This document shows positions 329 to 18,443 of a stretch of 64,000 nucleotides of DNA, piece after piece. The notes below the pieces were generated by a model, which was not told the origin of the DNA, did no database searches, and saw only the letters and a list, made by a program, of their open reading frames with translations. The DNA lies in the NCBI RefSeq assembly GCF_015689195.1, contig NZ_CP065044.1:2356001-2420000 (forward strand). Reading direction: 5' to 3'. Every line of letters starts with the position of its first letter. Within the stretch, counting starts at the first letter, position 1. The stretch is from Pectobacterium aroidearum. Its GTDB lineage: Bacteria; Pseudomonadota; Gammaproteobacteria; Enterobacterales; Enterobacteriaceae. The position numbers were made by a program, and so were the translations under genes.

Positions 329-1870
329 CTATGTGGATGCTGTTCCGTTACGCGGCGGGCAGCGTTCAAGCAGCTCAACGCTGCCATCTGCGTTAGCCTG
401 TTCCAGATAGACGTCAAAGCCCCACAGGCGGTGGACGTGCTTCAACACTTCCTGGCTGCTTTTATCCAGCGGGGCGCGATTATGCGGAACATAGCGCAGC
501 GTTAGCGCCCGATTGCCGCGCAAATCCACATTCCAGACCTGAATATTCGGCTCCAGATGGCTCAGGTTGTACTGTGCGGAAAGCTCCTGCCGGATCAGGC
601 GATAGCCTTCTTCGTCGTGAATCGCCGCGATTTCCAGATAGTTGTTTCGATCGTCGTCCAGCACCGTAAATAGCCGGAAATCACGCATCAGCTTAGGCGA
701 CAGGAACTGGCTGATGAAACTCTCGTCCTTGAAGTTCTGCATCGCAAAATGCAGCGTATCAAGCCAGTCTTTACCGGCAATATCGGGGAACCAGTAACGG
801 TCTTCGTCCGTCGGCGACTGACAAATGCGCTTGATATCCTGAAACATCGCGAAGCCCAGCGCATAGGGGTTGATTCCGCTGTAATACGGGCTGTTATACG
901 GCGGTTGATAGATCACATTAGTATGGCTGTGCAGGAATTCCATCATGAAGCGCTCAGTGACCCGGCCTTCATCATAGAGATGGTTCAGAATGGTGTAGTG
1001 CCAGAACGTAGCCCAGCCTTCATTCATTACCTGCGTCTGCTTTTGCGGATAAAAATACTGACTGACTTTCCGCACGATACGCAGAACCTCACGCTGCCAG
1101 GGCTCCAGCAGCGGCGCGTTCTTCTCCATAAAATAGAGCAGGTTTTCCTGCGGCTCTTGTGGAAAGCGTCTCGCTTGCTCCGGTGCGGCACCTTGTTCAC
1201 GTCGCGGTAATGTCTTCCAGAGATCGTTAACCTGGCTTTGCAGGTAGGCTTCACGGCTTTTCTGGCGCGACTTTTCCTCTTCAAGCGAAATTTTTTGTGG
1301 GCGCTTGTAGCGATCAACGCCGTAATTCATGAGCGCATGGCAGGAATCTAACAGGCGTTCCACTTCGTCCACGCCATAACGCTCTTCGCATTGCGCGATA
1401 TATTGTCGGGCAAACAGCAGATAATCGACAATGGAGCTGGCATCGGTCCAACTGCGGAACAGGTAGTTGCCTTTGAAGAACGAGTTGTGTCCGTAGCAGG
1501 CATGCGCCATGACGAGCGCCTGCATCGGCAGTGTGTTCTCTTCCATCAAATACGCGATACAGGGATCGGAGTTGATGACGATCTCATACGCCAGCCCCTG
1601 CTGTCCGTGTTTGTAGCGTTGTTCGGTTTCGATAAATTTCTTCCCGAACGACCAGTGGGCATAGTTGATCGGCATTCCTATACTGGAATAGGCGTCCATC
1701 ATTTGTTCTGAGGTGATGACTTCGATCTGATGAGGATAGGTCGACAGACGATACAACTTGGCCACCCGATCAATTTCATCAAGGTAAACCTGCAATAACT
1801 CAAACGTCCAGTCCGGTCCATCACTCAGGCGAAGTGTTTTTTTTACCTGATTATCCGTGGATATAGCCAT
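329..1870 (-). CDS. ycgB: SpoVR family protein (YcgB)
   Basis: A 513-residue protein collinear with E. coli YcgB (about 510 aa) and part of the SpoVR family, named after a Bacillus stage V sporulation protein. Family blocks visible include RLSDGPDWTF near the N-terminus, QALVMAHACYGHNSFFK, a conserved EGWATFWHY segment with His and Glu residues that looks metal-site-like, and NPYALGF. The biochemical activity is not established. In proteobacteria the gene is functionally linked with yeaG (PrkA-type kinase) and yeaH (DUF444) in stationary-phase and nitrogen-starvation physiology. Both partners occur about 9 kb away in this window. The ATG start at 1870 gives the same N-terminus as relatives. 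No signal peptide or membrane segment is seen, so it is probably cytoplasmic. Confidence 0.93.
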   Translation of the reverse strand: MAISTDNQVKKTLRLSDGPDWTFELLQVYLDEIDRVAKLYRLSTYPHQIEVITSEQMMDAYSSIGMPINYAHWSFGKKFIETEQRYKHGQQGLAYEIVINSDPCIAYLMEENTLPMQALVMAHACYGHNSFFKGNYLFRSWTDASSIVDYLLFARQYIAQCEERYGVDEVERLLDSCHALMNYGVDRYKRPQKISLEEEKSRQKSREAYLQSQVNDLWKTLPRREQGAAPEQARRFPQEPQENLLYFMEKNAPLLEPWQREVLRIVRKVSQYFYPQKQTQVMNEGWATFWHYTILNHLYDEGRVTERFMMEFLHSHTNVIYQPPYNSPYYSGINPYALGFAMFQDIKRICQSPTDEDRYWFPDIAGKDWLDTLHFAMQNFKDESFISQFLSPKLMRDFRLFTVLDDDRNNYLEIAAIHDEEGYRLIRQELSAQYNLSHLEPNIQVWNVDLRGNRALTLRYVPHNRAPLDKSSQEVLKHVHRLWGFDVYLEQANADGSVELLERCPPRNGTAST

Positions 1871-2072
1871 CAGCGCGCCCCCTAATATAGCAAACCTGTA
1901 CGTGAGATTCCGTTTACTGCCTTCCGGTTGGCCCAGCCAAAAAAACCATCGTTGTTCATTTAGTTATAGCTGAGCTTTGGTGGCGCGGCAATTGAGGAAT
2001 CGAACGTGTGTGATGGTAAGAGGTTGTCGGTAGGGTAAAAAATGCACGCGTATGTACGGGAGAAAAGGGAAG

Positions 2073-2094
2073 TGCGCTCTCCTGAGAGAGCGCA
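2073..2094. terminator. Hairpin beyond the aldolase gene
   Basis: A 9-bp perfect stem (TGCGCTCTC / GAGAGCGCA) with a 4-nt loop lies just past the stop of the PTS-aldolase operon. On the minus strand the T-run precedes rather than follows the stem, so it is not a textbook terminator for that operon. It may protect the 3' end of the transcript. Confidence 0.4.
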
Positions 2095-2110
2095 AAAAAT
2101 GCAGGCCGGA

Positions 2111-3013
2111 TTAGGGGCGTTGATAGCGTTTTAGGAGTGCCTGAATATCCCTGAGTCGCGAGACGGCGACGGTAGACAGTTTCTCTTTTGAAATTGCACG
2201 TTCGAGGGATATACAGTCTTTCCAGAGTGAACGTCCGGCAATGACGCCAGATGCGCCATTTTTCAACGCGCTTTCTACCTGAGGGAGAAACGTTGCGTGA
2301 TCGACACCCGCAGAGAGGACTGCCCAGGGGATGTTACCGCAGAGCGCGGTAACGTGCGCGCAGGCTTCATCAGATCCAGGATAAGGAATTTTTAAAACCT
2401 TTGCGCCGGCCTCGATACAGGCCTGACAGCCTGCTGGAATGAGTTCGGGCAGGAGACGCGTGTAGGTGTCGCGAGATTCATTTTCCAGAGAGTAGGTCAG
2501 AAATTCGACGACGAGCAGTAAATCTTCCTGCGCAAAATCCTGTATCACGGTACGGAGTGTTTCAAGGTTACGGGTATTGGCATCCGGTCTATCTGGACGC
2601 AGGTAGATCATAATTTTCCCCCCTGTCGCTCCCCATTCACGTACTTTACGCGCCGTGACGCCCTCAACCAGCGTGGAGATCCGATACCCTTCTGGCGTCG
2701 TTTCCCAGCCTGACGCATCAAGCCCGATGAGCAGACCGGTATCACGAGGCAAGATGTTTTCATCGATCAGACCGGGTATGGCGCAAATAGGATCAACCAG
2801 CACGCATCCTGCCTCTGCCGCCAGATAACGTGTGATGTCATATTTTGTTTTTCCTAATGTTTCATTAGTAATGGCCGCCTGTGCTTCAGGGGTCGATGCT
2901 AATAATGTTCGCATCCCGCCACGTTGATCGCAGGCAATAACCATCATTGAGCCCGTTGCATCACAAATTAATTGATATCCCCGGTATTCAGCCGTGGTCA
3001 TGGTGTTCATCAT
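2111..3013 (-). CDS. LacD/YihT-like class I aldolase (tagatose-bisphosphate aldolase family)
   Basis: About 300 residues forming a single TIM-barrel-type class I aldolase. The MVIACDQRGGMR segment corresponds to the MLAVDQREAMR block of YihT. The VLKIPYP strand near residue 208 carries the expected Schiff-base lysine. The following LSAGVD and GASGVIAGRSLWKD blocks form the family's phosphate-binding end. LacD cleaves tagatose-1,6-bisphosphate to DHAP and glyceraldehyde-3-phosphate, and YihT cleaves sulfofructose-1-phosphate. The substrate here is unknown, but a PFK-like kinase in the same operon suggests a ketohexose bisphosphate. The start at 3013 is preferred over the in-frame ATG at 3025 because AGGA lies just 5 nt upstream. 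It is the last gene of a seven-gene leftward operon, 21 nt after the P-loop kinase gene. Assignment to the LacD/YihT family is strong; the exact sugar is inference. Confidence 0.85.
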   Translation of the reverse strand: MMNTMTTAEYRGYQLICDATGSMMVIACDQRGGMRTLLASTPEAQAAITNETLGKTKYDITRYLAAEAGCVLVDPICAIPGLIDENILPRDTGLLIGLDASGWETTPEGYRISTLVEGVTARKVREWGATGGKIMIYLRPDRPDANTRNLETLRTVIQDFAQEDLLLVVEFLTYSLENESRDTYTRLLPELIPAGCQACIEAGAKVLKIPYPGSDEACAHVTALCGNIPWAVLSAGVDHATFLPQVESALKNGASGVIAGRSLWKDCISLERAISKEKLSTVAVSRLRDIQALLKRYQRP

Positions 3014-3046
3014 AATTATCCTCATAAAATTAATATCAATAATCGA

Positions 3047-3580
3047 TTAATCCAGGTGGTTTTTAATCCATTGAATGAGTTCCTGATAATTAATGTCCTT
3101 ATCCTGATCAACCGTGTAGCACTTACCAATACTCATCGGGTTAGCCTGATGTGCGAGTGCCATTAATTCCGGAAGGTATTCATCACCGGGATGGCCTTTT
3201 ATTCTTTTATGCACTCTGGCCTGATAACGTTCTGCTACTCGTTCGGGGGAAATTGCATTCCATATTTCAAGCGTGTGCTGGATGTCACACGCAGTGATAT
3301 ATTCTTGTAATCGTGATTTTTCGCGAAACCCAAACCAGGCATCAAGAATAATGGTGCTGTTTTTCGGTGCCTGCTGAACGATATTAAACATGGCTTGATA
3401 CGCAGCATACCCTAGCTTTCTGTTTAACGTTCTATCAATGGTGTCGCAAAGTTGCACCATGAAAGGCTCTTTTATTTCATCGAGACTCAACAGAGGGAGA
3501 TGTAATTCATCTGCAATGACTCGAGCTACCGTACTTTTCCCCGATGCTGGTATACCATTTACTAAAATAAGTTTTTTCAT
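3047..3580 (-). CDS. Small P-loop kinase (AAA_33/zeta-toxin-like fold)
   Basis: A 177-residue protein whose N-terminus is a P-loop (Walker A GIPASGKST, residues 9-17) after a hydrophobic strand. A SLDEIKEPF segment follows at the position where small-molecule kinases such as gluconokinase and zeta-type ATPases keep a catalytic Asp, and a helical C-terminal half carries Arg residues suited to a lid. This architecture belongs to small P-loop phosphotransferases. The substrate cannot be read from sequence. The gene overlaps the upstream EIIA gene by 4 nt (ATGA), so translation is probably coupled. Position inside the sugar operon suggests it phosphorylates a sugar or sugar derivative, perhaps one entering by a non-PTS route. 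A toxin role is less likely because no antitoxin gene is adjacent. Confidence 0.7.
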   Translation of the reverse strand: MKKLILVNGIPASGKSTVARVIADELHLPLLSLDEIKEPFMVQLCDTIDRTLNRKLGYAAYQAMFNIVQQAPKNSTIILDAWFGFREKSRLQEYITACDIQHTLEIWNAISPERVAERYQARVHKRIKGHPGDEYLPELMALAHQANPMSIGKCYTVDQDKDINYQELIQWIKNHLD

Positions 3581-4014
3581 AATACCCCGGCAATGTCATC
3601 GGATGTTATGGCGGTTCGAATACGAGAGATCATGTCGTCTTTTTCCAGTAAATTGACGATAGAGGCAATGCCTTCCGTAATATGTGCATCACTGCTAACG
3701 CCACCGAACATAATTAAAATATCCACGGGTTCACTTCCCTGAATAGAGATCGGTGTTTGTAACGTCAGTAAACTGAAACAATTCTCCCGCACCCCGCATT
3801 CAGGGCGAGCATGTGGAATCGCGATGCCTTCATCAAAAACATAATAAGGACCATATTCCTTCGTGTTTTTTATCACCGCGATGGGATACTTCTCCGTGAT
3901 AAATTTTGCATCAATTAATGGTTGTGCGGCACAATATATCGCGTCTTCCCACGTTTTACATACCACGCCAAGTTGAATACAGTTATGTTGTAACAGGAAG
4001 TTTTTTATGCTCAT
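3577..4014 (-). CDS. PTS EIIA component, fructose/mannitol-like fold (ascorbate-type system)
   Basis: A 145-residue stand-alone EIIA domain of the PTS_EIIA_2 family. The phosphorylatable histidine is H68 in the signature GIAIPHARPE, which is diagnostic for this family. The domain accepts phosphate from HPr and passes it to the EIIB cysteine encoded upstream at 5711-6004. UlaC and SgcA are the closest named E. coli types from memory. It lies 6 nt after the 92-aa unknown gene and overlaps the P-loop kinase by 4 nt. General PTS proteins (EI, HPr) are not encoded here and must come from elsewhere in the genome. Confidence 0.9.
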   Translation of the reverse strand: MSIKNFLLQHNCIQLGVVCKTWEDAIYCAAQPLIDAKFITEKYPIAVIKNTKEYGPYYVFDEGIAIPHARPECGVRENCFSLLTLQTPISIQGSEPVDILIMFGGVSSDAHITEGIASIVNLLEKDDMISRIRTAITSDDIAGVL

Positions 4015-4020
4015 AACGCC

Positions 4021-4299
4021 TCATATACTTTTACGAATGGTGTTTCTGAGTTCATCAATTTTGATAAAAATATCATCAACGCGATGTCGATAATCAGGAT
4101 GCCCAGAAAATAACTGGATGGCCTGGTTGTATTTAATCATTAACATTTTCTGCGTTTCACTATGGTTCGGATCTTGTATTAAGCGAGATTCCAGCTCTGC
4201 TAATTCTTTTTCCATTTCTTTGGCAAGATTGTCATTCACATGACTACGACGATCGGCAGAGGATCCGGAAGATAAAAAACGCCTGAGAAAAGAAAACAT
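4021..4299 (-). CDS. Hypothetical protein, 92 aa, inside the PTS operon
   Basis: Not recognised. After a short hydrophobic and basic N-terminus (MFSFLRRF) the 92-residue product is highly charged and looks almost entirely helical. The segment from EMEKELAELESRLIQ to the end carries heptad-like hydrophobic spacing and could form a coiled coil or helical hairpin. GGGG lies about 5 nt before the ATG. It sits 60 nt after the EIIC gene and 6 nt before the EIIA gene, so it is almost certainly co-transcribed and co-expressed with the transporter. No membrane segment is evident. A role as a PTS accessory or adaptor protein is only a guess from location. Confidence 0.65.
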   Translation of the reverse strand: MFSFLRRFLSSGSSADRRSHVNDNLAKEMEKELAELESRLIQDPNHSETQKMLMIKYNQAIQLFSGHPDYRHRVDDIFIKIDELRNTIRKSI

Positions 4300-4359
4300 A
4301 GTGACCCCTTAACCCGTTTACATAACATTAATGACGACAGACCATCGAAAGGCCATGCG

Positions 4360-5697
4360 CTATTGCGATAATTTACGATTCGCAATAAAGGCAATGAATG
4401 CAACGAATGCGACAAACGCAGCGACAAATAACCAATCTTGTTGGAATGCGTGCCCTAATATCAGACCTGTACTGATGACATCAGAATCACTAAAGGTCAC
4501 GCCGGTAAACCCGAAGACTTCCAGTAATGGCACCAGAATGGCGGGCAATAGGGTAATGAAAAGACCATGAACGACGCCTCCGATGACGGCGCCACGACGT
4601 CCTCCCAGTGCGTTGCCGAAAATACCCGCTGTCCCGCCAGCAAAGAAGTTGGTCAATAACCCCGGCAGAATCATCGCCAACCCAAACATTGGGAAGATCA
4701 GCATCCCCAGAACAGAACCGACGGTGGTAGCAAGAAAGCCGACAATCACGGCGTTGGGCGCATAAGGGAAGAGCACCGGGCAATCCAGCGCGGGTTTGGC
4801 GTTGGGTACCAGACGCATCGCGATGCCGCGGAATGCGGGAACTAATTCATTAAGCAGCAGACGTACACCGCTGTAGAGAACAAATACCCCTGCGACAAAC
4901 TGCATGGACTGCATGAAGGAATACATCAGATAGTTAACGCCGTTGGCGTATTGCGCGATATAGGCCGGCCCAGCCGCCACGGCCGGGATGAGGTACATCG
5001 GTACCATCACCACGGCCATTGACAGGTAGGTATCCTGCAAGAACTTGAAGTTATCGGGTAGCGTTAAATCCTCGGTGGATTTGGAGTTTTTACCGACTAA
5101 GCGGGCGACGGCAGCCTGTACCAAATACCCAATGGTACAAAAATGCCCGAGCGCCACATCGTCAGAATTCGTGATTTTACGTACAATCGGCTGCGCTAGC
5201 GCGGGCATCAGCACGGCCATAATGCCGCCAAATATGCCTCCGGTGAGGATCAGTGTTGCGCCGGTTAAACCCGATTTGTAGCCGATCACGGTACCGATTG
5301 TTGCCATCCACAGCAGAGCTTGCCCAGTCAGGAAGATATATTTAAAGGGAGTAATGCGTGCAATAAGGATGTTGACCGCAAAGATCACCATGAGCGTCAA
5401 GGCAACTTCTGACCCGAGTTCGCGGTTGGCCAGCCCGGCGATAGCGGCAACATCGGTGATGTAGCCTGTCATGCCAAAACCCTGAGTAAAGATGCGATTC
5501 AAATACGTCAGGGTGTCGACGATGATGTTAATCCCCGCCATCATGATGAGGAAACCCAGCAGCGTCTTGAACGTTCCTTCTGCAATTTTTCCGACTGATT
5601 TTTTCTGTAGAATCAAACCAATCATGGCGATCAGTGCGATTAATATGGATGCCTGGCCTAATAAATCTTTCACAATGAAATTGATAACGGTGTTCAT
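4360..5697 (-). CDS. PTS EIIC permease, ascorbate (UlaA/SgaT) family
   Basis: A 445-residue polytopic membrane protein resembling E. coli UlaA. Shared landmarks are an N-terminal KKSVGKIAEGTFKTLLGF segment, a LTGQ-like motif after ITPFKYIF, DDVALGHFCTIGY, a long central loop containing EDLTLPDNFKF, LPIASEVTDVN-like features absent, and a C-terminal ALDCPVLFPYAPNAVIVGF block aligned with AIDCAAIYSFAPNAVVWGF in UlaA. It should transport and phosphorylate a sugar in concert with the EIIB (upstream, 13-nt gap) and EIIA (downstream) subunits. Ascorbate itself is unlikely as substrate because none of the ulaDEF-type catabolic enzymes are here; a kinase and a LacD-like aldolase accompany it instead. 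A GAGG ribosome-binding site precedes the ATG. Confidence 0.9.
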   Translation of the reverse strand: MNTVINFIVKDLLGQASILIALIAMIGLILQKKSVGKIAEGTFKTLLGFLIMMAGINIIVDTLTYLNRIFTQGFGMTGYITDVAAIAGLANRELGSEVALTLMVIFAVNILIARITPFKYIFLTGQALLWMATIGTVIGYKSGLTGATLILTGGIFGGIMAVLMPALAQPIVRKITNSDDVALGHFCTIGYLVQAAVARLVGKNSKSTEDLTLPDNFKFLQDTYLSMAVVMVPMYLIPAVAAGPAYIAQYANGVNYLMYSFMQSMQFVAGVFVLYSGVRLLLNELVPAFRGIAMRLVPNAKPALDCPVLFPYAPNAVIVGFLATTVGSVLGMLIFPMFGLAMILPGLLTNFFAGGTAGIFGNALGGRRGAVIGGVVHGLFITLLPAILVPLLEVFGFTGVTFSDSDVISTGLILGHAFQQDWLFVAAFVAFVAFIAFIANRKLSQ

Positions 5698-5710
5698 TTT
5701 TTACCTCATG

Positions 5711-6004
5711 TTATTTATGAGCCTGAATATACGCTAAGATTTTTTCTTCTATTTCGTCTTTGTCGGTCAATTTATTAAGAATGATGATTCTCTTTTTCTC
5801 ATCCTCATTGGCATCACTAGTCAGAATATCCGCAAATATTTTCTGCGTTAAAATGACGTCATAGCGGAAGGCAGAGGCTTCTGAAATCGTGGTGTGATTT
5901 ATTTCTGCATCAATGCCCAGTTTTTTTAGTACGGATTTTGCACTCATTTCGATAGCGAAACTGGAGCCTAATCCACAGCCGCATACGCAAAGAACTTTCA
6001 ACAT
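5711..6004 (-). CDS. PTS EIIB component, ascorbate/lactose-like
   Basis: A 97-residue EIIB domain beginning LKVLCVCGCGLGSS. The cysteine C8 in the first beta-strand/P-loop (VCGCGLGSS) aligns with the phosphocysteine of UlaB (VCGNGQGSS). C6 and C10 flank it, an unusually cysteine-rich P-loop. The rest is a short Rossmann-like alpha/beta protein ending in a helix (EEKILAYIQAHK), of normal length for this family. The subunit takes phosphate from EIIA and gives it to the incoming sugar on EIIC. It is separated by 10 nt from the PFK-like gene and 13 nt from the EIIC gene, which fits a single transcript. Confidence 0.9.
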   Translation of the reverse strand: MLKVLCVCGCGLGSSFAIEMSAKSVLKKLGIDAEINHTTISEASAFRYDVILTQKIFADILTSDANEDEKKRIIILNKLTDKDEIEEKILAYIQAHK

Positions 6005-6014
6005 AATAATGGCC

Positions 6015-6995
6015 TCATATAAGATGATGAGCTTTCGCGAGCTTATAAAAATGACTTTCTACATCGACTAAGCGGCGTTCGGACTCCTCTAGGTCGATGG
6101 GAATAGCTTTGTTGTTGTTATTAATAATAATGATTTTATTTGTCAGCCCAGTGTTGATACACCGAACGACTTCCTCTGCTAAAAGGGTGCCCTGAATAAT
6201 TTCTTCCCCGGTGGGCGCGCCATTTCGTAAACCGTATCCCAAAATAGTCTTTCGGATACGGATTCCAATTTTGTGCTCTAGCTTCTTGATAATGGTGTCG
6301 ATCGCGCCCTGAAAGCCGGGTGTATATTCCTGGGTATAGCCTTCAGAGCATAAAATAATCACGCTGTTCTGTTCTGCAATCTTTTCCCGAATACATTGTG
6401 ACAGCGTATCCATGTCCCAGGGGGACTCTGGAATAAGCGCAATATCAGCATTGCTTTTCAACGCGGCCTGTAATGTTAATTCCCCACAATAACCGCCCAG
6501 CAGTTCAATCATGAATACTCGGCCTTGTAATCCCCGGCCCGTATTGCGTAACTTTTCTACCTCACTCATTACCTGTTCGCAGGCGGTAGAAAAACCAATC
6601 GTGTAGCTGTTTCCTGAAATGTCATTATCAATCGTCATTCCTACGCCGTAGCAATGAACACCATAGTGGCTGAGTTTCTTGAGGAATTGAAATGATCCAT
6701 CTCCCCCAGCCATGATGAGCGCATCGAGTTTTTGTTTTTGTATATTTTTAACGATTTTCTCATAATCAGCTTTTCTGCATTTTCCTGCTCTTCTCCCTGA
6801 CGTCATCAACGGCATTGATGAGATGGAATAATCAACCAGATCGCGGCGAGTAATCGCTTTGCAGCAATTGTCGATAAGGCCATTAATTCCACCATCAAAA
6901 ATGACGATGTCAGCATCTGTCATTCTGTTCACCTGAAAGATGAAGTTATTTATTCCGCTAACATCGCCGCCACTAATGACTAATCCAATTTTCAT
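6015..6995 (-). CDS. 6-phosphofructokinase-like sugar-phosphate kinase (PfkA superfamily)
   Basis: A 326-residue PfkA-type protein, close to the length of E. coli PfkA (320). The fold markers are intact: the nucleotide loop ISGGDVSG (8-14), GGDGS (97-101), the catalytic TIDND (121-125, containing the general-base Asp), R159, E218 and R257. Several sugar-site positions differ from PfkA. The VMGRYCG motif becomes LLGGYCG (Met169 to Leu and Arg171 to Gly in E. coli numbering), and His249 in LGHIQRGG becomes Tyr in LGYGLRNG. The likely reaction is ATP-dependent phosphorylation of a ketose phosphate to a bisphosphate, the substrate for the aldolase at the end of the operon. Tagatose-6-phosphate is one candidate; fructose-6-phosphate cannot be excluded. 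It is the first gene of the operon, with an AGAGG site before the ATG. Confidence 0.85.
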   Translation of the reverse strand: MKIGLVISGGDVSGINNFIFQVNRMTDADIVIFDGGINGLIDNCCKAITRRDLVDYSISSMPLMTSGRRAGKCRKADYEKIVKNIQKQKLDALIMAGGDGSFQFLKKLSHYGVHCYGVGMTIDNDISGNSYTIGFSTACEQVMSEVEKLRNTGRGLQGRVFMIELLGGYCGELTLQAALKSNADIALIPESPWDMDTLSQCIREKIAEQNSVIILCSEGYTQEYTPGFQGAIDTIIKKLEHKIGIRIRKTILGYGLRNGAPTGEEIIQGTLLAEEVVRCINTGLTNKIIIINNNNKAIPIDLEESERRLVDVESHFYKLAKAHHLI

Positions 6996-7135
6996 CGTTG
7001 ACCTCTGAAATATGAATAATTATCGTGTGAACACAATGTTATTAAACTGATAAAGCATTTTTTTGATGAATATCTCAAATTTGTATTTAATTACGGGGTT
7101 TCGCAGCTTGACAGGGATGAATAGGGATAGGTTTC

Positions 7136-7151
7136 TGTGATGGTTATCATG
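7136..7151. promoter_or_regulatory. Weak CRP-like site
   Basis: TGTGA is followed by six bases and TCATG, i.e. one perfect and one 3-of-5 half-site. It is about 140 bp upstream of the PFK-like start, a more promoter-proximal position for the PTS operon than the perfect site at 7258. Confidence 0.35.
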
Positions 7152-7257
7152 ATTTTAAAATGTGCGACTGGGCTAACATCTTCATTCATTTGAGTTTTAA
7201 CATTTCCGTCTTTTTTATCTTTTCTGCCGTTTCTTCCTAAAAAACGAATGCCTATTT

Positions 7258-7273
7258 TGTGAATGATTTCACA
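7258..7273. promoter_or_regulatory. CRP binding site
   Basis: A perfect TGTGA-N6-TCACA palindrome. It lies about 210 bp upstream of dadA and 265 bp upstream of the PTS operon, so it could serve either or both. Catabolite control is expected for both units (dadA in E. coli is CRP-dependent; PTS sugar operons usually are). Confidence 0.72.
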
Positions 7274-7480
7274 GTTATTTCATTACGAATGTCCTGGAGA
7301 AGATTGATTGGGGTGAGAAGGAACAATAGATAAATGTTATCGTTGAGATGGGTGACAATTCCTTCCCAAATGCTAGAGTAGTCTCCAGTTTCACCTGTTA
7401 CCTAGTGTTTTATTCCATTAAATAAACAGTTTTCTAGCAGATTAGACGGTCTTTAGCGGAGAGAAAGGGAGAGCGGTAGC

Positions 7481-8734
7481 ATGCGGGTTGTGATTCTGGG
7501 AAGTGGCGTAGTTGGCGTGAGTACCGCCTGGTATCTTGCGCAGGAAGGACATGATGTCACCGTTATCGATAGACAACCGGAGCCCGCGTTAGAAACCAGC
7601 GCCGGGAATGCCGGGCAGATTTCACCCGGCTATGCTGCGCCCTGGGCGGCGCCGGGAATACCGCTGAAAGCGATAAAATGGATGTTTCAGCGCCATGCGC
7701 CTCTGGCTATCCGGCCCGACTTCACGGCCGCGCAGTTGTGCTGGATGTGGCAAATGTTGCTCAATTGTGATGCGCACCACTATAAGACCAATAAAGCGAG
7801 GATGGTGCGTCTGGCGGAGTACAGCCGTGATTGTTTGCAACAGCTGCGGCGGGATACCGGTATCGAGTACGAAGGTCGGCAGGGCGGAACGCTGCAACTG
7901 TTCCGTACCGAACAGCAATATGACAATGCAACTCGGGATATCGCCGTACTGGAAGAAGCTGGCGTGCCATATCAACTGCTGACGCGTCATGAGCTGGCCT
8001 CTGTTGAACCTGCGCTGGCAAATGTGGCGGAGAAACTGACCGGCGGGCTGCGCTTACCACATGATGAGACAGGGGACTGTCAGCTGTTCACCCGTCAACT
8101 GGCGGCGATGGCTGCCGATGCAGGCGTCACCTTCAAACTGGAGCGCCACGTTCGTCAGTTACGGGTGGAAGGCCAAAACGTGACGGGCGTACAGTGCGAC
8201 GATGAAATGATCGTGGCGGACGCCTATGTGATGGCCTGCGGTTCCTATTCCACGGGGCTACTGCGCCAATGGTTCGATATTCCGGTTTATCCGCTGAAAG
8301 GCTATTCACTGACGATCCCGCTGGCGGATGATGCCTCCGCGCCGGTTTCTACCGTGCTGGATGAAACCTACAAAGTGGCAATCACGCGTTTTGATCGTCG
8401 CATCCGCGTTGGAGGAATGGCAGAGGTCGTGGGCTTCAACACCGATCTGAATCCTAAACGACGTGAAACGCTGGAGATGGTCGTGCGCGATCTGTATCCC
8501 CATTGCGGCCCGATTGAACAAGCGACATTCTGGACGGGGCTGCGTCCGATGACGCCAGACGGCACGCCGCTGGTGGGGCGTTCTCCGCTGAAAAATCTGT
8601 ACCTGAATACCGGACATGGCACGTTAGGCTGGACGATGGCCTGCGGGTCAGGAAAGTTACTGGCGGATATTCTGTCGGACAAATCACCGGAGATTGAGGC
8701 CGATGATTTGTCCGTGGAAAGATACGTTCGTTAG
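7481..8734 (+). CDS. dadA: D-amino acid dehydrogenase small subunit
   Basis: A 417-residue FAD-dependent oxidoreductase nearly collinear with E. coli DadA (432 aa). The N-terminal dinucleotide-binding motif [24 protein letters not shown] is the Rossmann FAD site, and [17 protein letters not shown] follows as in DadA. The C-terminal [17 protein letters not shown] and [16 protein letters not shown] segments close the FAD and substrate site. The enzyme oxidises D-alanine and other D-amino acids to 2-oxo acids, passing electrons to the respiratory chain at the membrane. The C-terminus is about 15 residues shorter than in E. coli. The usual partner dadX (catabolic alanine racemase) is not downstream: the next gene is an unrelated efflux protein on the opposite strand, so this dadA is monocistronic. 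Confidence 0.95.
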
Positions 8735-18427: not shown

Positions 18428-18443
18428 TGTGACGTGTATCACA
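18428..18443. promoter_or_regulatory. CRP binding site between gapA and msrB
   Basis: A perfect TGTGA-N6-TCACA palindrome in the 343-bp divergent region. Its centre is about 90 bp upstream of the predicted msrB start, a position used by class I CRP promoters, and about 155 bp upstream of the predicted gapA -35. Confidence 0.75.

Follow-up and report, generated by a model that had tools for sequence, protein, structure and literature searches.

A putative CRP-controlled phosphotransferase operon for a rare ketose in Pectobacterium aroidearum

Seven adjoining genes on the minus strand of a 64,000-nucleotide stretch of Pectobacterium aroidearum DNA (contig NZ_CP065044.1, positions 2,356,001 to 2,420,000; hereafter the window) encode a phosphotransferase system (PTS), two kinases of different families and an aldolase. 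We propose, with a probability of roughly 0.55, that they form a CRP-controlled operon through which a rare ketose would be imported by the PTS, phosphorylated twice and split by aldol cleavage. The host is a soft-rot plant bacterium whose genome is one contig of 5.0 Mb; the window sequence is Pectobacterium-like, and the phosphofructokinase (PFK)-like kinase of the operon is 100% identical in Pectobacterium sp. PL152. The original prediction, made from the letters of the window, described seven packed leftward genes separated by 6-60 nt with one 4-nt overlap, and this is borne out: all seven reading frames lie on the minus strand from 6995 to 2111, with gaps of 10, 13, 60, 6, -4 and 21 nt from the PFK gene to the aldolase gene. 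The genes, in order of reading, are as follows.

6015..6995, minus strand: PFK-A family kinase, 326 aa, first gene (reading frame; Pfam PFK)
5711..6004, minus strand: PTS enzyme IIB (EIIB), 97 aa, with C8 (Pfam PTS_IIB)
4360..5697, minus strand: PTS enzyme IIC (EIIC), EIIC-GAT/UlaA superfamily, equivalog NF009551 (Pfam EIIC-GAT and NCBIfam)
4021..4299, minus strand: orf92, small protein modelled as three helices, 92 aa (no Pfam family; structure model)
3577..4014, minus strand: PTS enzyme IIA (EIIA), 145 aa, with H68 (Pfam PTS_EIIA_2)
3047..3580, minus strand: P-loop kinase, 177 aa (Pfam AAA_33)
2111..3025, minus strand: class I DeoC/LacD-family aldolase of rhizobial type, 304 aa, with K212 (Pfam DeoC/LacD)

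The family markers that had been named (EIIB C8, EIIA H68 and the TIDND motif of the PFK-like kinase at 121-125) were confirmed, and the aldolase holds K212, which we take to be its Schiff-base lysine. The set is real and not a product of chance, since all seven genes recur together in 22 related loci and columns of the 92-aa frame are conserved. Related loci are grouped here into five forms, of which form 1 is the window type, forms 2-4 are other PTS loci and form 5 comprises loci with ATP-binding cassette (ABC) importers and ROK kinases. A PFK search of genome contigs returned 23 loci, 21 orthologous (78-100% identical) and 2 distant, and the form-1 set counts 23 loci besides the window, including a Sodalis plasmid and one more genome. 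All seven genes are present by similarity in 22 form-1 loci from Pectobacterium, Lonsdalea, Erwinia, Sodalis and others, among them L021, whose EIIA frame is interrupted near its start; the remaining locus, L011, ends at a contig edge. Most form-1 loci were found via PFK, so its presence there is partly a matter of selection. In searches that did not target PFK, 3 of the 5 Enterobacterales genomes carrying the class I aldolase also had it (394 searched), as did 8 of the 12 with an EIIC over the cut-off (197 searched). Searches of an open-access library yielded no characterised operon with this gene set and a known substrate, and no experimentally tested substrate for the set.

The relatives differ in composition, but every PTS form keeps an EIIC of this family, a P-loop kinase, an aldolase of bisphosphate type and, where orf92 stands in the window, a small helical protein. 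Form 2 reads PFK, EIIB, EIIC, class II aldolase, orf92, EIIA and P-loop kinase; it is known from six genomes of the EIIC family search (L093-L098) and a Klebsiella pneumoniae record (L103, CP125156.1), where the PFK match falls in two unannotated pieces. This last record is chromosome-sized, is filed as a plasmid and has the operon near formate dehydrogenase genes. Form 3, found through its aldolase in two genomes of the window's family, has no PFK and consists of a PTS, a TPR-like small protein, a P-loop kinase and a class I aldolase, with a divergent SorC-type regulator. Form 4, likewise PFK-less, occurs in four genomes of 2.4-2.7 Mb and on two Enterococcus megaplasmids; it encodes a long protein (690-700 aa), one end of which is EIIA-like, together with EIIB, EIIC, a TPR-like protein, a class II aldolase and a P-loop kinase from a different subfamily, and the one long protein scanned, that of L100, also matches antiterminator models. 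Form 5 comprises 21 loci found by aldolase on rhizobial-type plasmids and in other genomes, in which the class I aldolase accompanies ROK and P-loop kinases, encoded in one frame in 17 loci and in neighbouring or overlapping frames in four. A ribose-type binding protein occurs in 20 of these 21 loci, and a SorC-type regulator, at the threshold used, also in 20; the rhizobial loci mostly have an ABC importer beside the aldolase. Since these rhizobial kin join the same kind of P-loop kinase to ROK, beside the aldolase and a binding protein, the role of first kinase seems to pass between PTS and ROK from one form to another.

The aldolases of the PTS loci are either class I and LacD-like or of the unrelated class II fructose-bisphosphate aldolase (FBA) type, and never both: a class II query found nothing in 25 class I PTS loci and a class I query nothing in 13 class II loci. 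This mutual exclusion holds for the PTS loci and 20 of the 21 ABC/ROK loci only. Two class II proteins were scanned and both pass a ketose-bisphosphate aldolase model, while the window aldolase scores 57.6 bits against a cut-off of 23.8 for Pfam DeoC/LacD, which places it in that superfamily; its K212 aligns with a lysine of YihT and does not vary across the class I rows aligned (46 of 46). Because two unrelated folds alternate in the same setting, the end step is probably a cleavage that yields dihydroxyacetone phosphate (DHAP), and the earlier suggestion that the aldolase splits a bisphosphate gains support from this.

One question is which of the two kinases would supply the second phosphate. 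The original prediction assigned this step to the PFK-like enzyme and left the P-loop kinase without a role; its outline of PTS, second kinase and aldolase stands, but the choice of PFK as bisphosphate maker is doubtful, and the key kinase was probably misassigned. Kin without PFK in the fetched stretch comprise 2 class I PTS, 6 class II PTS and 21 ABC/ROK loci, and in them the kinase that stays beside the aldolase is a P-loop kinase (8 of 8 among the PFK-less PTS loci). Overall a P-loop kinase was found in 58 of the 59 operon loci compared, missing only from L011 with its contig end, and it never served as a query in collecting them; wherever the class I aldolase occurs (45 of 45 loci), a small P-loop kinase accompanies it. 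The window protein shares 39% identity with the domain at the C-terminal end of a rhizobial ROK fusion. We propose the P-loop kinase as the better candidate for phosphorylation at C1, because every form keeps a P-loop kinase and PFK is missing from three of the five.

The PFK-like kinase is likely an active enzyme with a changed sugar site. It retains GGDGS and TIDND, which, like its equivalents of D127, D129, R162, E222, R243 and R252, do not vary in 24 of 24 form-1 rows; R162, R243 and R252 are phosphate-site arginines. Positions M169, R171 and H249 of the E. coli numbering, the canonical residues of the sugar/phosphate site, read L, G and Y in all 24 rows, and L, G/A and Y/F in the 6 class II rows examined, one of which has N for D129; at residue 74, close to where E. 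coli has R72, the rows show R or K. The protein scores 170 bits against 371 for the 6-phosphofructokinase PfkA equivalog TIGR02482, and 25 of 25 Pectobacterium genomes carry, apart from any operon copy, a housekeeping gene of PfkA-like type with 31-32% identity to it. These observations bear on an alternative hypothesis, which we regard as unlikely, that 1-phosphorylation of a tagatose-like 6-phosphate falls to the PFK-like enzyme alone while the P-loop kinase acts elsewhere, for instance on the product or on a second substrate. PFK-A family enzymes are established performers of this type of reaction, the catalytic and phosphate-site residues are kept with sugar contacts altered alike in both forms, and the ubiquity of the housekeeping gene implies a specialised operon copy. 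However, the EIIC and aldolase kin described above manage without PFK, although within the PFK-less PTS forms the housekeeping PfkA could stand in.

A further hypothesis, quite improbable in our judgement, is that the permease admits two ketoses, such as a heptulose and a hexulose, each with its own kinase and both served by a broad aldolase. Two kinases co-occur in 22 form-1 and 7 form-2 loci (counting the PFK of L103 in its two pieces), and LacD-type aldolases are broad; yet the simpler PTS forms carry one operon kinase. Returning to the two-step phosphorylation that we favour, the PFK-like kinase would serve as an extra or parallel ketose-phosphate kinase.

Phylogenetic trees suggest how the window type may have arisen. 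In the aldolase tree, 23 form-1 rows make one clade (100/99) among ABC/ROK rows, within a 26-row fork supported at 99/96, whose other members have form 3 next to them as a clade of its own (100/94). The P-loop tree groups form 1 with the class II operons of form 2 (100/98). As the aldolase places the window among rhizobial rows and the P-loop kinase places it with class II operons, the simplest account, and a likely one, is that the window type arose from a form-2 operon in which a class I enzyme of rhizobial type took the place of the class II aldolase.

What sugar would such an operon handle? The binding protein of rhizobial locus L034 has PDB entry 5dkv as its best match, over nearly its whole length (E 2.6e-160), and we take 5dkv to be Avi_5339 with alpha-D-tagatopyranose bound. 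Mannoheptulose and tagatose, as ligands, both have the D-tagatose-like C3-C5 arrangement. A 2017 study (PMC5507952) describes an ABC, ROK, COG0529-kinase and COG3684 gene set in Rhodobacteriaceae bin08 and proposes a mannoheptulose route from 7-phosphate to 1,7-bisphosphate and then to DHAP and erythrose 4-phosphate; it reports the bin08 binding protein to be 83% similar to Avi_5339, said to bind mannoheptulose per an unpublished result, and points out the likeness of mannoheptulose to tagatose. The same kind of sugar is our best guess for the window, because its aldolase groups with the rhizobial ABC/ROK enzymes, and the substrate would most likely be D-mannoheptulose or D-tagatose, a better candidate than was available before. 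In the proposed route, EIIA, EIIB and EIIC would import the ketose and place a phosphate on its terminal carbon, as their family implies; a second kinase, for preference the P-loop kinase, would add the C1 phosphate; and the class I aldolase would split the 1,n-bisphosphate into DHAP and an aldose phosphate, namely erythrose 4-phosphate from D-mannoheptulose or glyceraldehyde 3-phosphate from D-tagatose. Hamamelose, apiose, autoinducer-2-like and sulfosugar substrates were considered and dropped, as nothing supported them.

A more specific version of this route, which we offer tentatively, is a heptulose PTS: D-mannoheptulose would enter as the 7-phosphate, a new family of P-loop kinase would form the 1,7-bisphosphate, and either type of aldolase would release DHAP and erythrose 4-phosphate, with the helical or TPR-like protein as constant partner of the PTS enzymes II and the sugar-shifted PFK as a second heptulose/hexulose kinase. 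An ordinary D-tagatose operon, running from tagatose 6-phosphate through tagatose 1,6-bisphosphate to triose phosphates, is a somewhat doubtful alternative. The aldolase family and the presumed tagatose ligand of 5dkv would suit it, and annotated plasmid orthologues are named tagatose-bisphosphate aldolase, but the window enzyme lies far under the LacD equivalog TIGR01232 (47.1 against 432.2 bits). Moreover, the one printed ligand statement found, that in the passage of PMC5507952 on the binding protein, names mannoheptulose.

The permease itself offers no direct evidence on the substrate. EIIC matches PF03611 at E 2.3e-121, and so belongs to the UlaA/GAT superfamily, and passes the NCBI equivalog NF009551 with 822.1 bits against a cut-off of 657. 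It also passes the ascorbate-named NF006919 (480.9 against 380 bits), and the closest models for EIIA and EIIB are those of the ascorbate PTS, which would favour an operon for ascorbate or another sugar acid of the ula kind. We consider this very improbable, because the permease scores far higher for NF009551, an equivalog for an unnamed sugar, and because Pfam and NCBIfam scans of the seven genes found no family of the ula catabolic enzymes (decarboxylase or 3- and 4-epimerases) and no UlaD/E/F-type isomerase. The earlier reading of a sugar operon with a UlaA-type permease but without ula enzymes is supported.

For orf92, the Pfam and NCBIfam scans found no family. Its alignment over 21 sequences has 26 invariant columns, mostly in the C-terminal two thirds, and its model (predicted local distance difference test score 85.8) has helices at 14-42, 47-65 and 71-91; nothing in the PDB matched better than E 0.45. 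Profile comparison of the window type with form 4, the small-genome form, gave a probability of 73%, and the form-3 type of L042 reached 91% against form 4, while window and L042 types gave only 6% against each other. From these profiles and its gene position, orf92 is possibly remote kin of the TPR-like small proteins encoded beside EIIC in the PFK-less PTS forms, and it is probably a partner of the permease. DNA of the type we designate D had no match in E. coli genomes.

Several points weigh against this interpretation as a whole. The PFK-like enzyme is evidently no relic, given the invariance of its catalytic and phosphate-site residues, and could itself be the 1-kinase; both kinases are retained together, and our scheme gives no reason for two. 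The form-4 P-loop kinases compared (L099, L100 and L102) are almost without similarity to that of the window. Form 3 falls outside the ROK-joined group in the P-loop tree (96/87), unlike its aldolase, and the trees are midpoint-rooted with some long rows, the fork that makes the class II P-loop kinases paraphyletic being weak (87/50). In L030, a rhizobial locus, a gene for a class II FBA lies some 8 kb away from the class I aldolase. Several ketose bisphosphates serve LacD-type aldolases as substrates, and the sugar is therefore not settled by the aldolase. The substrate guess leans on an unpublished result and on a binding protein that belongs to the ABC form and is absent from the PTS forms. 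Finally, growth of bin08 on mannoheptulose, though stated in PMC5507952, is a prediction, because the growth tests, as the paper presents them, covered four isolates and excluded bin08.

The flanks of the operon carry the following features.

7258..7273, no strand assigned: perfect CRP consensus TGTGA-N6-TCACA, beginning 278 bases before the start codon of PFK
7136..7152, no strand assigned: second, imperfect CRP-like site, read by eye; its counterpart is better preserved in some loci
2073..2094, minus strand: terminator-like hairpin 3' of the aldolase, from a consensus scan only

A perfect CRP site lies 278-295 bases before PFK in the window and in 23 of 23 related loci (L001-L021, L029 and L073), including loci whose neighbour genes differ, and the 64-kb window has two perfect sites against 0.05 expected. 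These positions suggest that the operon is probably CRP-controlled. The other perfect site of the window is at 18428-18443. Further CRP-like sites near -157 and -83 occur in some form-1 loci within the long control region, beside which the window has no local regulator gene. A structured RNA in the 280-base leader was considered and found no support, the alignment showing spaced CRP-like sites in AT-rich DNA; an Rfam scan of 1800-7600 gave no match up to E 1. The consensus scan for terminator-like sites found 4 in the region against 5.4 in shuffles. In the loci seen, the PFK-bearing forms share no operon-linked regulator, and the PFK-less forms have a SorC-type regulator (2 of 2 in form 3, 20 of 21 in form 5) or the long EIIA-bearing antiterminator-like protein of form 4; this difference may reflect descent only. 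The SorC-type regulator of L042 had no match in the window's genome at E 0.001, a search that says little in itself, as it lacked a positive control. Seven form-1 loci have LysR genes downstream; these were rejected as operon parts, being 21-37% identical to one another outside Lonsdalea.

The operon lies at window 1871-7480 between two genes that we take, from their sequence and E. coli gene order, to be dadA and ycgB. An orthologue of its PFK is present in 17 of 25 Pectobacterium genomes; the remaining 8 have the housekeeping-type PFK only and no operon, and in 5 of these ycgB and dadA adjoin directly, ycgB lying outside the fetched stretch in the other 3. An eighth gene, HAD phosphatase-like, follows the aldolase in 12 of 14 complete form-1 loci outside Pectobacterium and Samsonia, and in none of the 8 loci of these two genera nor in the window; the best match elsewhere in the window's genome was only 29% and was not accepted as an orthologue. 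Near the rhizobial aldolase, a PdxJ-like (pyridoxine 5'-phosphate synthase) gene occurs in 4 of 21 loci (L030:9724-10473, L034:10110-10856, L061 and L064). Erythrose 4-phosphate feeds B6 synthesis, and such a supply may or may not be the link to this gene. Another recurrent neighbour of the rhizobial locus, seen at L034:17827-22256 and alike, is a cluster that encodes a GFO/IDH dehydrogenase, a sugar isomerase/epimerase, an alpha/beta hydrolase, an RPE-like epimerase and a ROK kinase, with GFO in 12 of 21 loci and RPE-like in 8 of 21; it is perhaps an upstream pathway.

If our interpretation is correct, a heptulose, or tagatose carried by a UlaA-type enzyme II, would join the sugars transported by the PTS, and a function would be gained both for a P-loop kinase family and for a small PTS-linked protein. 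The operon would also be a likely case of aldolase replacement and would offer a way to check the pathway that the 2017 study predicted on the strength of unpublished binding data. The operon hints, moreover, at the diet of some plant-associated enterobacteria.

How does this system compare with those already known? With the ula operon the window shares an EIIC-GAT/UlaA superfamily transporter and the type of EIIA and EIIB, but it has kinases and an aldolase in place of the ascorbate enzymes. LacD, of the Gram-positive LacC/LacD tagatose pathway, and the sulfofructose-phosphate aldolase YihT belong to the same class I superfamily, with aligned lysine and phosphate-site residues, although the window aldolase falls well short of the LacD equivalog; the kinase of the tagatose pathway is of the PfkB type. 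The form-2 operon has six of the window's seven genes in the same order, and differs in that a class II FBA-type aldolase stands between EIIC and orf92, no class I aldolase having been found in the stretch. The predicted mannoheptulose locus of bin08, going by its description in PMC5507952, would resemble the window in its COG3684 LacD-like aldolase and small P-loop type of kinase, and in a predicted course of two phosphorylations followed by cleavage to DHAP, whereas it combines ABC import with a ROK first kinase where the window has a PTS, a PFK-like kinase and orf92. The rhizobial loci of form 5 have the same make-up as the bin08 locus as described there, and the window locus would be a new, PTS-based version of this predicted, unproven pathway.

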